64,000 bases of DNA from Pseudoduganella lutea (GTDB taxonomy: Bacteria > Pseudomonadota > Gammaproteobacteria > Burkholderiales > Burkholderiaceae_D): NCBI RefSeq assembly GCF_004209755.1, contig NZ_CP035913.1:1240001-1304000 (forward strand), in the 5' to 3' direction. The translations under genes were made by a program, and so were the position numbers. Positions 3,450-10,124 of this stretch are shown here, piece by piece (the first letter of the stretch is position 1; each line of letters opens with the position of its first letter). The notes beneath the pieces are model-generated. The model did no database searches. It was given only the letters and a program-made list of their open reading frames with translations, and was not told the DNA's origin.

Positions 3450-5017
3450 TCCAGTGGTTCCCAGGCGACGCCGGAGGATGGCAGCTTTTTCAGCACCAAC
3501 CGGTAAGGCGGGTATTTTTTCAACGCGTTCAGGCGCGGTACCAGGTGCTCGTCCGCTGCTGCGCGCAACAGCGGTTCCTGGCTTTGCGGCAGGCTGCCGA
3601 ACGCCTCGGTTTCGATCAGCCGGGCCAGCGATGCGGGGGCGATGACACCGATCGTGCGTGCGGCATCGGGCAGCAGGTCGGCCACCGCCGGCGCCCGCTT
3701 GCGCTGCACTGCGAGTACCTGGTCGACCAGTTTCCCGTCCGCGGAAAACACGACCAGCTTGCCCGCCATGGCCAGCGTTGCCTTCGCCTCGCCCTGCCTT
3801 GTCGCCACGGTGCGCTCCCAGCGGACGGCACCTTCCGCCCTGGCCGCGGCTGCATCGCCCTTGCCGGCCATCGTTGCCGAAAACAGGCTGCCGAGCAGCG
3901 CCTCGGTATTGGCCGCTGCGGCCGGAGCGCGGCTTGCGACAAAGACTGGCGTGTGCAGGCGCGAGCCGCCATACCAGCAGGCGGCAGCGGGACCGCTCAT
4001 CTGATCGGCGAGCGGCAACAGCGGCGCGTTGGCATCGATGCGCTCCAGCACGGGCTGCATGGCTGCCCAGTCGGCCGGCACGATGAAACAGGCACTCGGG
4101 TTATGCGGCAGCACGTGCCACAGTGCGGTCGCGTCATAACCGCCCTTCTTCAGCTTGCCTGCGTCCAGCAGCGCATGTGAAGCCCATGCTCCCTTGCTGA
4201 AGTCGAACCGCAGCGCTTCGAACGCGCCAAAGAATGGCTGGTAACCGAACGACAGGAAATCCGCCTTGACGGCGATGCTGTGGCCATCGGTCGCGCCGCG
4301 CGCCAGGCGGAACTGGTCATGAAAGACACGCTGCCGTGCGCCATCCTTCGACAGCAGGTCGATCACGGCTTTGCGGGCGGTCTCGTCGACGTTCTTGCCG
4401 TCGTCGCCCCCGTACAGCATGCCCGGATGGGACAGGACGACGAGCCGATCGCGGTGAGCCGCCAGCAGCAGCGTGCGGTTGTAGGCATAGTCGAGCGCGA
4501 ACACGCGCACGTCGGCACCGTCGACGGACAGCTCGCCGGCGATGCGCATCTGGCTGTCCTTCAGCGCAACCTTGCCTGCTTCCTCGACCAACCGGGTGAG
4601 CTGGTTGCGCGAGACGGCAATGGCAAAGTGCTTCAGCGTGCCATCGGCATCGCGCCACAGCGCCACGTCCGCCGGCTGGTCCAGCACCATGCGCAGCAGC
4701 TGGTCGCCCCAGCCCAGTTCATGTTCATAGGCGATGCGCCGCAGGCTGCCTTTCAGGCCCAGCCGGTCTTCGTTCTGCTCGTAGTAGAAGAGGAACTCCT
4801 CGCGCAGGACGTCGCGCGCCAGCGGGATCTTCAGTAAATCGCGCGGCAGCGTGGACAGGCTCTTCGTGACGATCAGCGCATCGGGCTTCGACAGGTCGAT
4901 GCCCAGGCTGTTGACCGGCCCCGCCCAGTGCCCCCAGCCGAACGTGCGGTAGGCCACCAGGGCAGCGGCGACGATGGCCACGCCGGCGACGGCTTTGATC
5001 AGCGTTTTCTTTTGCAT
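3428..5017 (-). CDS. DUF2138 family protein (YfaA-like)
   Basis: 529 residues, first gene of the operon. Residues about 7-24 form a single N-terminal hydrophobic segment, probably a signal anchor, so most of the protein should be periplasmic. The rest has no catalytic motif I can name. The family is recognised from overall resemblance to E. coli YfaA (DUF2138) and from the conserved order DUF2138 - DUF1175 - alpha-2-macroglobulin. The function is not established; the constant partnership suggests accessory or maturation proteins for the macroglobulin. The AT-rich 100 bases upstream probably contain the operon promoter. Confidence 0.85.
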
Positions 5018-5215
5018 TACGCGCCCGTGGGTTGAAACTTGCTATTTTTAATTACTAATTTTACCACGGATTAATTGCATTTAAGTAATCATTCTGGGCT
5101 TGTATGTAAGGCGCGACAGTGTGCTGCTATCAACAATCATCGATAGCGACGGGTCAAAGGTACATGCCGCTTTGTCGGTCAGAGGCTATTGAATGCGCGT
5201 CGCCATAGCAAAAAA

Positions 5216-5239
5216 CCCCGCCGACATATGCTGGCGGGG
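5216..5239 (-). terminator. Rho-independent terminator, minus strand
   Basis: CCCCGCC (5216-5222) pairs with GGCGGGG (5233-5239), and the minus-strand transcript then runs into a U tract (A-run at 5209-5215). Stem and loop resemble the two terminators next to the 5S genes (6760-6783, 6967-6990), so this may be a further terminator of the rRNA operon, separated from it by the IS insertion. Confidence 0.75.
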
Positions 5240-5264
5240 TCTTACCCTGTACAGCCCAAAAACC

Positions 5265-5318
5265 GGTGACAGACACCCAATATTTTGAAACATTTCCAGA
5301 AAACCGGTGTCTGTCACC
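5265..5318. repeat. Palindromic intergenic repeat pair (REP-like)
   Basis: GGTGACAGACACC (5265-5277) and its exact reverse complement GGTGTCTGTCACC (5306-5318) form a 13-bp inverted repeat with a 28-base spacer; ACC precedes both arms. From memory, such GGTGTCTGTCACC palindromes recur between genes of Massilia-type genomes, like REP elements. The right arm ends only 4 bases before the inverted repeat of the IS element. Confidence 0.75.
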
Positions 5319-5334
5319 GTACATGGACGCCCCC

Positions 5335-5605
5335 GGTATGCCAAGCTTTCTTTTCATGACGGCTTTAGGTAAAGATTGCACCCGTACATTCGGACTTTGA
5401 TGTGGCCGATGCCACTGTCCCTGATGGGATTTGCTGGTCGACGCCCCGGCGGTTTAACGCACTCGAAGTGCTTGGTGACAGACGGGCTTAGCCAACCACG
5501 GTCTTACCTGGTTTGCCATCACTGCTTGATCGCTTGTGCAATCGGTGGAATGTACCGGCACTGCTTCCAAAAACTGTTTGCCTCCCTTCGACAAGGGACC
5601 CTTAA
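5335..5605 (-). ncRNA. Candidate bridge RNA region of the IS1111-type element
   Basis: This is the 3' non-coding stretch of the element, where IS1111-type elements encode the bridge RNA that pairs with donor and target DNA. Supporting signal: GGTGACAGAC at 5474-5483 equals one strand of the palindrome immediately outside the element. I did not fold the RNA or define its ends, so the limits given are those of the non-coding region only. Confidence 0.4.
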
Positions 5606-5639
5606 CCGGGTCGATTACGCGGCAGCGTAATCGACCCGG
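5606..5639. repeat. Perfect 15-bp hairpin spanning the transposase stop codon
   Basis: CCGGGTCGATTACGC (5606-5620) and GCGTAATCGACCCGG (5625-5639) are exact reverse complements around a 4-base loop. The hairpin covers the last eight codons of the transposase, its TAA stop (5615-5617) and nine bases beyond. There is no T tract, so it is not a standard terminator; it may mark the start of the non-coding RNA or limit transposase expression. Confidence 0.8.
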
Positions 5640-6634
5640 AACTCTCTGTCATGTGCTAACAACGCCCACACTGTTCTTGCATTTTTGTTGGCCAAGGCCA
5701 CGGCAGCGATATTCTTGTGTCGCCGGCTAAGTAGCGAATGAAGCCAGTCTTGCTTGATCTTGTTGGCTGCGTGCCGGATTACTGCTCGGGCGCCATGAAT
5801 GAGCAACGTGCGCAGATACGTATCGCCTCGTTTGCTGATGCCAAGAAGGTTGGTTCGGCCGCCCGTTGAATGCTGTTTCGGCACCAGGCCAAGCCATGCA
5901 GCGAGCTGTCGGCCGTTGGCGAAGTGCTTGGCGTTACCGATCGCTGCCACCAATGCGCTCGCTGTAATCGGACCAATGCCCGGTATCTTCTCTAGTCGCT
6001 GAGACATCGAATTCGAGCGATGCCAATTCTGGATCTCCAGCTCGAATTGCTTAACTCGCTTGTCCAATACGTTCAAGTGATCAAGAAGTTCGAGGATGGT
6101 CTGGCGGAACGCGCCGGGCAGTTCATCCTTCGCTTCATCGAGCAATGTCGGCACCCGCTCCTTAAGCAGGGCCAGGCCCTTTGGCACGATCAATCCAAAC
6201 TCCGCCAATAGCCCGCGAATCTGATTAGCCTGCGCCGTGCGCTGCTTGACGAATCCTGCCCGGGCCGTGTGGACAGCAAGGATCGCCTGCTGTTCGATAT
6301 TCTTGATCGGCACGAAACGCATGCTTGGTCGTTGTACTGCTTCGCAGATCGCTTCTGCATCTGCTGCATCGTGCTTGTTGGTCTTCACGTACGGCTTGAC
6401 GAACTGCGGAGCTATCAGCTTGACCGTGTGCCCCAGGCTTTGCAGTTGCCGCGCCCAGTAGTGCGCGCTGCCACATGCTTCCATTCCGATCAGACACGGT
6501 GCCATGTTGGCGAAAAATTCCATTACCTTGCCACGCCTCAGCTGGATACGCTTCTCCACCTTGCCAGCCGCATTTACACCGTGGAATTGGAAAACTTCCT
6601 TTGCCAAATCAACACCGCATACCGTAATCTTCAT
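5615..6634 (-). CDS. IS110-family transposase (DEDD type)
   Basis: 339 residues, full length for the family. The N-terminal RuvC-like domain has the expected acidic residues: Asp9 in VCGVDLAKE, Glu52 in IGMEACGSAHYW, and Asp89/Asp92 in KHDAADAEAI. The C-terminal Tnp_20 domain has the helix-hairpin-helix EKIPGIGPITASALVAA and the motif GISKRGDTYLR, which holds the conserved serine of the family. The frame is intact, so the element may be active. The protein ends in VDYAAA inside the stop-codon hairpin. Confidence 0.95.
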   Translation of the reverse strand: MKITVCGVDLAKEVFQFHGVNAAGKVEKRIQLRRGKVMEFFANMAPCLIGMEACGSAHYWARQLQSLGHTVKLIAPQFVKPYVKTNKHDAADAEAICEAVQRPSMRFVPIKNIEQQAILAVHTARAGFVKQRTAQANQIRGLLAEFGLIVPKGLALLKERVPTLLDEAKDELPGAFRQTILELLDHLNVLDKRVKQFELEIQNWHRSNSMSQRLEKIPGIGPITASALVAAIGNAKHFANGRQLAAWLGLVPKQHSTGGRTNLLGISKRGDTYLRTLLIHGARAVIRHAANKIKQDWLHSLLSRRHKNIAAVALANKNARTVWALLAHDREFRVDYAAA

Positions 6635-6759
6635 GGTGACGCCCCCCTCTAGCTAAGTGGTTTCTCGACAACTCCACTTTGGCACATTGATGCCGTTTTA
6701 GGGTGGGGGCGTCCATCCCATTGGTTTTCGAGAAACTTTTTGAGCCGAAAAGCGAAAAA

Positions 6760-6783
6760 CCCCGCCAGCACACGCTAGCGGGG
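6760..6783 (-). terminator. Terminator behind the partial 5S copy
   Basis: CCCCGC and GCGGGG close a hairpin with inner AGC/GCT pairing and flanking A and T runs, so it can work on both strands. It is nearly identical, with its flanks, to the hairpin at 6967-6990 behind the complete 5S gene. Confidence 0.85.
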
Positions 6784-6797
6784 TTTTTCTATGTAAC

Positions 6798-6871
6798 AGC
6801 CTGACGATAACCTGCTTTCACACTGGTTGCAGCACTATCATCGGCGCAAAGTCGTTTCACGGTCCTGTTCG
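6798..6871 (-). pseudogene. Truncated 5S rRNA copy (3' two-thirds)
   Basis: 74 bases match the 3' part of the complete 5S gene at 7005-7120 with one visible difference (CCTGCTTT here, CCTACTTT there, plus-strand reading). Similarity stops abruptly at 6871, after GTCCTGTTCG. The first ~45 bases of a 5S gene are missing, so the product could not fold as 5S. Bases 6872-6960 between the copies are unrelated to rRNA. Confidence 0.85.
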
Positions 6872-6966
6872 TGGAGCGAGGTCGGGCAGTGCCCGGCCGA
6901 GCAAAAAACCGGAACCTTGCCGAAGTCCGCAACATACTGCTGAAGTGGCATTCCAAATGCGAAAAA

Positions 6967-6990
6967 CCCCGCCAGCACACGCTAGCGGGG
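6967..6990 (-). terminator. rRNA operon terminator
   Basis: CCCCGCCAGC-acac-GCTAGCGGGG hairpin with A run before and T run after on the plus strand, 14 bases beyond the 5S 3' end. It should end the rRNA transcript, backed up by the copy at 6760-6783. Confidence 0.9.
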
Positions 6991-7004
6991 TTTTTCTATA
7001 TAAC

Positions 7005-7120
7005 AGCCTGACGATAACCTACTTTCACACTGGTTGCAGCACTATCATCGGCGCAAAGTCGTTTCACGGTCCTGTTCGGGATGGGAAGGGGTGGGACCGA
7101 CTTGCTATGGTCATCAGGCA
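7005..7120 (-). rRNA. rrf: 5S ribosomal RNA
   Basis: About 116 bases. The minus-strand 5' end TGCCTGATGACC and the 3' end CGTCAGGCT form the terminal stem, and CCCATCCCGAAC in between is the conserved 5S loop. Last gene of the rRNA operon. Confidence 0.95.
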
Positions 7121-7248
7121 TGACTTGTACGATCGATTGCTCTCAATGGAGCAGCAATCGATCTCAATCTGGAAGAAGTAAGTTGGGTAACTCTCATCAA
7201 AGAGTAAATGCAAGGAACCATGATTGGTTCATAACCGTCAAGGTTATA

Positions 7249-10124
<2,876 letters not shown>

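Follow-up and report, generated by a model that had tools for sequence, protein, structure and literature searches.

Does the RNA encoded by an insertion sequence choose the repeat into which the element inserts? This question is raised by one locus of the window, i.e., the whole stretch of 64,000 nucleotides of Pseudoduganella lutea DNA that was analysed. There, an insertion sequence stands against a palindrome, and ten bases of the palindrome, GGTGACAGAC, recur in the non-coding 3' part of the element. Sequence comparisons make it very probable that this is an IS1111-type element with a downstream bridge RNA (seekRNA) guiding insertion to a REP-like palindrome. The element, its ends, its insertion site, the fold of the RNA region and the covariation of its guides with target and donor were demonstrated by sequence.

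The element and its insertion site

The window's element is an IS1111-type insertion sequence of 1404 bp (5320-6723, minus strand), placed by four full copies at 99-100% identity and by comparison of the flanks with uninterrupted palindromes; positions 5319-6722 are equally possible (one shared C/G). In the sense of its transposase the element lies on the minus strand, with the left end at 6723 and the right end at 5320. The transposase gene (5615-6634, minus strand; 339 aa) was assigned to the DEDD IS110/IS1111 type from its open reading frame and from Pfam matches, each above cut-off, to PF01548 (DEDD_Tnp_IS110) and PF02371 (Transposase_20). Perfect subterminal inverted repeats of 12 bp were found on the left (ATGGACGCCCCC, 6705-6716, minus strand, with the 7 outer bases CAATGGG at 6717-6723) and on the right (GGGGGCGTCCAT, 5323-5334, minus strand, with the 3 outer bases GTA at 5320-5322), and a non-coding stretch of about 295 bp lies between the end of the transposase gene (5615) and the right end. 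In its published description (PMC11187229), the IS1111 group is defined by 11-13 bp subterminal inverted repeats that leave 7 bases outside them at the left end and 3 at the right end, and its transposases measure about 330-350 aa. The element agrees with these published features in the length of its DEDD transposase, in its inverted repeats and outer bases and in its long downstream non-coding region. The closest full-length transposase relatives in named genomes belong to Massilia niastensis, an Alcaligenaceae bacterium and Noviherbaspirillum aerium (72-74% identity), and a plasmid search returned 5 records, the best at 73.7%. No tandem repeats were found in window positions 5000-7300. Between the element and the rRNA operon, a 122-bp stretch comprising the 5S rRNA 3' end and a terminator is duplicated (6754-6875 and 6961-7081, 97.5% identity).

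The window's genome (G000; 7.5 Mb, single contig) contains four full copies of the element, and all four are inserted at AAAAC^CGGTGACAG, the palindrome lying next to their right end. At each of them AAAAC is followed by CAATGGG at the left junction, GTA is followed by CGGTGACAG at the right junction, and GGTG[T/C]CTGTCACC adjoins the element at an identical distance. In the window, the palindromes form a pair. The left arm AAAACCGGTGACAGACACC (5259-5277, plus strand), read directly and from the consensus of palindrome copies, is an unoccupied copy of the same target, whereas the right arm GGTGTCTGTCACCG (5306-5319, plus strand), read directly, is interrupted by the insertion and resumes as GTTTT at 6724-6728. 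Within these arms GGTGACAGACACC occupies 5265-5277 and its reverse complement GGTGTCTGTCACC occupies 5306-5318; the four bases GTAC separate the end of the right arm at 5318 from the start of the inverted repeat ATGGACGCCCCC at 5323. The initial annotation had given the sequences and positions of GGTGACAGACACC, GGTGTCTGTCACC and GGTGACAGAC, as well as the 4-base gap, correctly.

Because AAAACC stands immediately 5' of GGTGACAGACACC in 24 of the 28 uninterrupted G000 palindromes, the uninterrupted site is AAAAC^CGGTGACAG, and the shared C leaves an ambiguity of one base. Insertion without target duplication is a trait of the IS1111 group and its family. Comparison of the ends with uninterrupted palindromes elsewhere in G000, i.e., at non-orthologous sites, leaves room for a duplication of at most one shared base. 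A joined-flank search of 74 genomes (best 8 candidates per genome), whose query held 569 of 1600 bases and represented site L002 and most of L003, yielded no clear orthologous empty site. A similar uninterrupted palindrome cluster in G003 (L222) matched at 81% over 147 query bases, and its orthology could not be called. A second palindrome family (GGGTCTGACCC type) was seen near copies L002 and L004, and several genomes of the genus contain similar sequence.

With copies 99% identical, the palindrome and the element might have been duplicated together as a block instead of being joined by repeated targeting. The palindrome loops and outer flanks are different at each of the four G000 sites, and they also differ among the seven sites of a sister element in genome G063, described below. 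The copies therefore represent independent insertions, and block duplication is extremely improbable.

The target belongs to an abundant repeat. Exact copies of GGTGTCTGTCACC number 51 in G000 (0 for a reversed-pattern control), and many of these palindromes are paired, 41 or 45 bp apart, often in inverted orientation. At G000:C1:1055961-1056062 (L010-L012), three copies about 45 bp apart share one direction and do not form an inverted pair. Thirty of the 51 palindromes were read, 28 of them uninterrupted and 2 at element junctions. Coding-like ORFs covered 7 of the 28 uninterrupted palindromes vs 256 of 300 random window positions, in a crude test of ORFs and third-position GC in which the arms of one pair were counted singly. 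By this test most palindromes are probably intergenic. The suggestion that the repeat family offers many safe intergenic targets is supported as far as this crude coding test reaches.

REP and REPIN repeats are linked to a gene for a RAYT (REP-associated tyrosine transposase). Five Y1_Tnp matches were found in G000, and both GGTGTCTGTCACC and GGTGACAG are absent within about 1.5 kb of all five. A RAYT origin of the window's palindromes is not supported by these matches: none of the five RAYT-type genes has the palindrome within that distance. A palindrome pair of GGTGTCGGACAC(C) / GGTGTCGGACACC type (L154) lies about 0.4 kb from the Y1_Tnp match at C1:4525210-4525449 of G000; this GGTGTCGGACACC-type pair beside a RAYT-type gene is kin of the family targeted in G063, not of the window's. 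The window's palindromes occur in many copies, often as inverted pairs and mostly outside genes, and are named REP-like only.

Guides and fold of the RNA region

At 5474-5483, GGTGACAGAC encodes minus-strand GUCUGUCACC, the complement of the insertion site's right half. This predicted right target guide (minus strand), the complement of the target top strand, was assigned from guide/target covariation and is unpaired in the consensus fold; in the window an A of this guide faces the target's shared C. The predicted left target guide AAACCG (5450-5455, minus strand), likewise assigned from covariation, corresponds to the left half of the site; it has the same sense as the target AAAC^CG and would pair with the bottom strand. 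Along the minus-strand RNA, GUCUGUCACC comes first, followed by a small hairpin and then, 3', by AAACCG. Published IS1111 seekRNAs are described with the top-strand match 5' of the bottom-strand match (PMC11187229). The window's guides have this order, and both lie in a loop.

Two candidate donor guides were read by eye from a table of 24 relatives. The right donor guide AUCCCAU (5424-5430, minus strand) is complementary to ATGGGAT of the element's left end, and the left donor guide AUGUAC (5384-5389, minus strand) repeats, in the same sense, the right end ATGTA together with the shared C. In all 24 relatives the left donor guide fits the relative's own end, shared C or T included, and at the varying position of the right donor guide the pair is Watson-Crick in 22 and G-U in 2. 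Since few end types exist, shared descent contributes to this agreement. Copy L004 (G000:C1:4341071-4342474) carries a C-to-G change in the right donor guide, which would weaken the pairing between its RNA and the end of this same copy.

How much weight can the ten bases bear? The initial annotation had called such a match unlikely by chance. When the 280-bp non-coding region was randomised 20000 times with a first-order model, a 10-base match to the 19-nt arm, on either strand, turned up in 112 of the versions (about 0.6%). Taken alone, the match is suggestive and not decisive; the weight rests on the survey of copies, the sister element and the relatives.

A structured bridge/seek RNA region was delimited 3' of the transposase gene at 5374-5520 (minus strand) from 24 relatives, its limits being those of the consensus fold and not transcript ends. 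The alignment (A1) comprises 24 of the 40 distinct elements introduced below; the L043-type subfamily and L148 were excluded as too diverged, and L084, L088-L091, L097 and L135 as diverged, odd or incomplete. The consensus fold has 36 pairs, with 98.1% of cells paired vs 89.3% in shuffles and with 15 of the 36 pairs changed on both sides vs 9.3 in shuffles; neither value was reached in any of 500 shuffles. Further pair types, one of five covariation measures, numbered 32 vs 29.8 in shuffles, a value reached by 72 of 500 and hence not above them. Sliding the partners by 1-3 columns destroys the consensus structure, a control that is favoured by the structure coming from the same alignment. The predicted target-binding stem-loop (5435-5498, minus strand) consists of an outer stem, an internal loop and an apical hairpin (5459-5471), and the internal loop, flanked by the outer stem and the apical hairpin, contains the two target guides (right guide, columns 62-71; left guide, columns 94-99). 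The expectation that the ten-base match would lie in a guide loop and not in a stem was confirmed, here by the consensus fold of 24 relatives and not by a covariance model. The single-sequence fold of the window was not more stable than shuffles (z -0.25), and Rfam gave no match in the region at gathering level, with one sub-threshold chance hit.

The transposase stop codon lies within a near-perfect inverted repeat (5606-5639). This repeat shows matched changes in both arms in the G063 sister element, and changes in one arm only in copy L004. The matched changes in G063 suggest that a hairpin between the gene and the RNA has been kept.

Guide and target in sister and related elements

Genome G063, of the same genus, contains a sister element that is 83% identical and present in 7 full-length copies; copy counts in genomes other than the window's are lower bounds, and the genus search covered the best 5 candidates per genome and the family search the best 2. 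Six of the seven copies are inserted at AAAAC^CGGTGTCG, a changed palindrome (GGTGTCG), and none is at a window-type GGTGACAG site. The G063 right guide, GCGCGACACC, differs from the window's GUCUGUCACC in 4 of 10 bases, whereas the rest of the RNA region differs in 11 of 192 (guide vs rest, Fisher p 0.003). Three of the four guide changes fit changed target bases and the fourth is a mismatch. Eight contiguous target bases fit the guide before a mismatch (C opposite A); at L111/L218, one of the six fitting copies, only 7 bases fit. Exact sites in G063 number 54 of window type (AAACCGGTGACAG) and 49 of its own type (AAACCGGTGTCGC), therefore both targets are available to the sister element. Were the element to accept either family equally, the probability that all six fitting copies fall in one of them would be about 1-2% (the seventh copy left out). 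This seventh copy, L109/L216 (G063:C1:3313438-3314846), has CGACACCTCGG to the right of the element, which shows no fit to the guide. We suspect that the palindrome hairpin was later deleted by way of a CG repeat, which would give that flank. The initial annotation had asked whether every copy sits against the palindrome at the same distance. All four G000 copies do, six of seven G063 copies stand at a different palindrome that fits their changed guide, and one G063 copy departs from the rule.

The notion that the guide follows the palindrome most abundant in its genome was withdrawn, as AAACCGGTGACAG is about as frequent in G063 (54 copies) as in G000 (56); the specificity result was kept. 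As 13-mers, GGTGTCTGTCACC was counted 51 times in G000 and once in G063, and GGTGTGCGACACC once in G000 and 60 times in G063 (reversed-pattern control, 1 each); 26 of the 60 GGTGTGCGACACC copies in G063 were read with their flanks. AAACCGGTGTCGC occurs 6 times in G000, 49 times in G063 and 0 times in G069.

The search for wider relatives listed 112 end pairs (both orientations), of which 48 were kept by the left-end motif and 40 distinct elements after duplicate guide regions had been removed. The right guides of these 40 matched their own targets at a mean of 6.9 of 8 positions vs 4.8 after permutation, a value that 0 of 1000 permutations reached. Twenty-seven elements scored 7-8 of 8, eight scored 6, four scored 5 (L047, L060, L097, L135) and one scored 3 (L084, with its best match just beyond the span that was tested). 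At fixed columns of the 24 aligned relatives, the right guide scored 7.2 of 8 vs 4.0 with the targets of other elements and the left guide 5.5 of 6 vs 2.0, each with 0 of 10000 permutations reaching the observed value. These permutations do not remove relatedness, and similar targets among relatives raise the permuted scores. The low right-guide scores in this set were 5 (L128) and 6 (L068, L071, L073, L123, L141), and the low left-guide scores 4 of 6 (L067, L141).

A distant IS1111 subfamily (L043, L045, L046, L049, L050, L051, L060, L148) has a transposase identity of about 51-52% for the members listed. Sites of this L043-type subfamily mostly resemble GGCCANNNN^C[A/G]G, and in the members that fit, the right guide lies about 160 bases from the right end.

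The survey of relatives bears on how the ten bases came to stand where they are. They are some 150 bp away from the insertion point, and a chance match of 0.6% calls for some cause, which could be the capture of flanking palindrome sequence at insertion, with no role as a guide. The match is found at one place in all four copies, however, and most relatives with different targets carry the complement of their own target there. This position-specific covariation contradicts capture, to which we give almost no probability. A second possibility is that the transposase or the folded palindrome hairpin picks the site via DNA structure and that the match is incidental. It would agree with the target being a palindrome arm and with the insertion of some IS1111 elements in foldable sites such as attC and REP, as described in PMC11187229. 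Against it, the near-identical scaffold of G063 picks the palindrome matching its changed guide in a genome that also has window-type sites, and in many related elements the guide at this position of the RNA fits the element's own, unrelated target. In G069, moreover, where exact window-type palindromes number 165, the junctions found for a relative (5 left and 2 right) fit GG^CGCTGTCA instead; this relative was judged from its flanks alone, its guide lying beyond the contig ends and not being readable. Site choice by DNA structure is very unlikely. The proposal that the element is guided to the palindrome family is supported by the four G000 copies, the switch in G063 and the guide/target fit of the relatives.

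Under guidance by RNA, the downstream non-coding region would encode a bridge RNA (seekRNA) with two target guides, and two further stretches of this RNA would pair with the joined ends of an excised circle (ATGTA-C-AATGGGAT). Bound to the DEDD transposase, the RNA would direct the element into AAAAC^CGGTGACAG, where the arm of a REP-like palindrome has its outer edge. Copies would thereby land in an abundant, probably mostly non-coding repeat. Published experiments on relatives lead us to expect that the RNA is transcribed and bound by the transposase, that the element passes through a circle and that pairing of the guides determines the site. We further propose, tentatively and with some doubt, that the left guide stays on AAAACC, the conserved outer edge that several palindrome families of the genus share, while the right guide is re-coded along with the diverging palindrome centre, so that guide and repeat family would co-evolve by half-guide switching. 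If true, the element would exemplify how retargeting can proceed in nature step by step among abundant, low-cost repeats.

Comparison with known guided elements

IS621 reportedly inserts into REP sequences, and ISPpu10 of Pseudomonas putida is likewise said to have been found inserted in them. REP-targeting IS1111 elements, seekRNAs and bridge RNAs, and natural guide switching are already published. ISPpu9 of P. putida resembles the window's element in being inserted in REP sequences, according to the account in PMC8450116 (sequences not compared). By description, and again with sequences not compared, ISPa11 of Pseudomonas aeruginosa is also alike: it is an IS1111 element with a downstream seekRNA, REP targets and a top-strand match 5' of the bottom-strand match (PMC11187229). 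Its host and palindrome are different, and the passages of PMC11187229 considered here name no sister element switched between palindrome families.

IS621 of the IS110 group, from E. coli, shares with the window's element a bridge RNA with target and donor loops (PMC11208160). In the IS110 group, as described there, the RNA is encoded in the left end, whereas in the window's element it lies downstream of the transposase gene; the IS621 core is CT, whereas the window's element has a single shared C. The guide order of IS110-type seekRNAs is described as the reverse of the IS1111 order (PMC11187229). For such comparisons with IS621, the window's element offers an IS1111 bridge RNA in which a candidate is available for each of the four guides.

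Close relatives that were naturally redirected by base changes in the target-matching RNA, as seen here, have been described in the pairs ISEc11/ISXne4 and ISEc21/ISMch6 (PMC11187229). In that account, ISEc11 has a short linear target, and ISXne4 is known from few copies and ISMch6 from one. The pair of the window and G063 differs from these cases in that 4 and 7 copies were found, both targets are repeated palindromes and a single genome contains the two. A literature search by title and abstract opening, with bioRxiv preprints, many subscription papers and ISfinder outside its scope, found no guide switch between palindrome families. The clean part of the present case is this switch between two palindrome families, as seen by comparison of sister elements. 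It constitutes a natural experiment on RNA-guided transposition, in which sister elements with nearly the same scaffold differ in few guide bases and both target families can be counted, and it suggests how elements like these can change target in small steps, with abundant repeats as landing sites.
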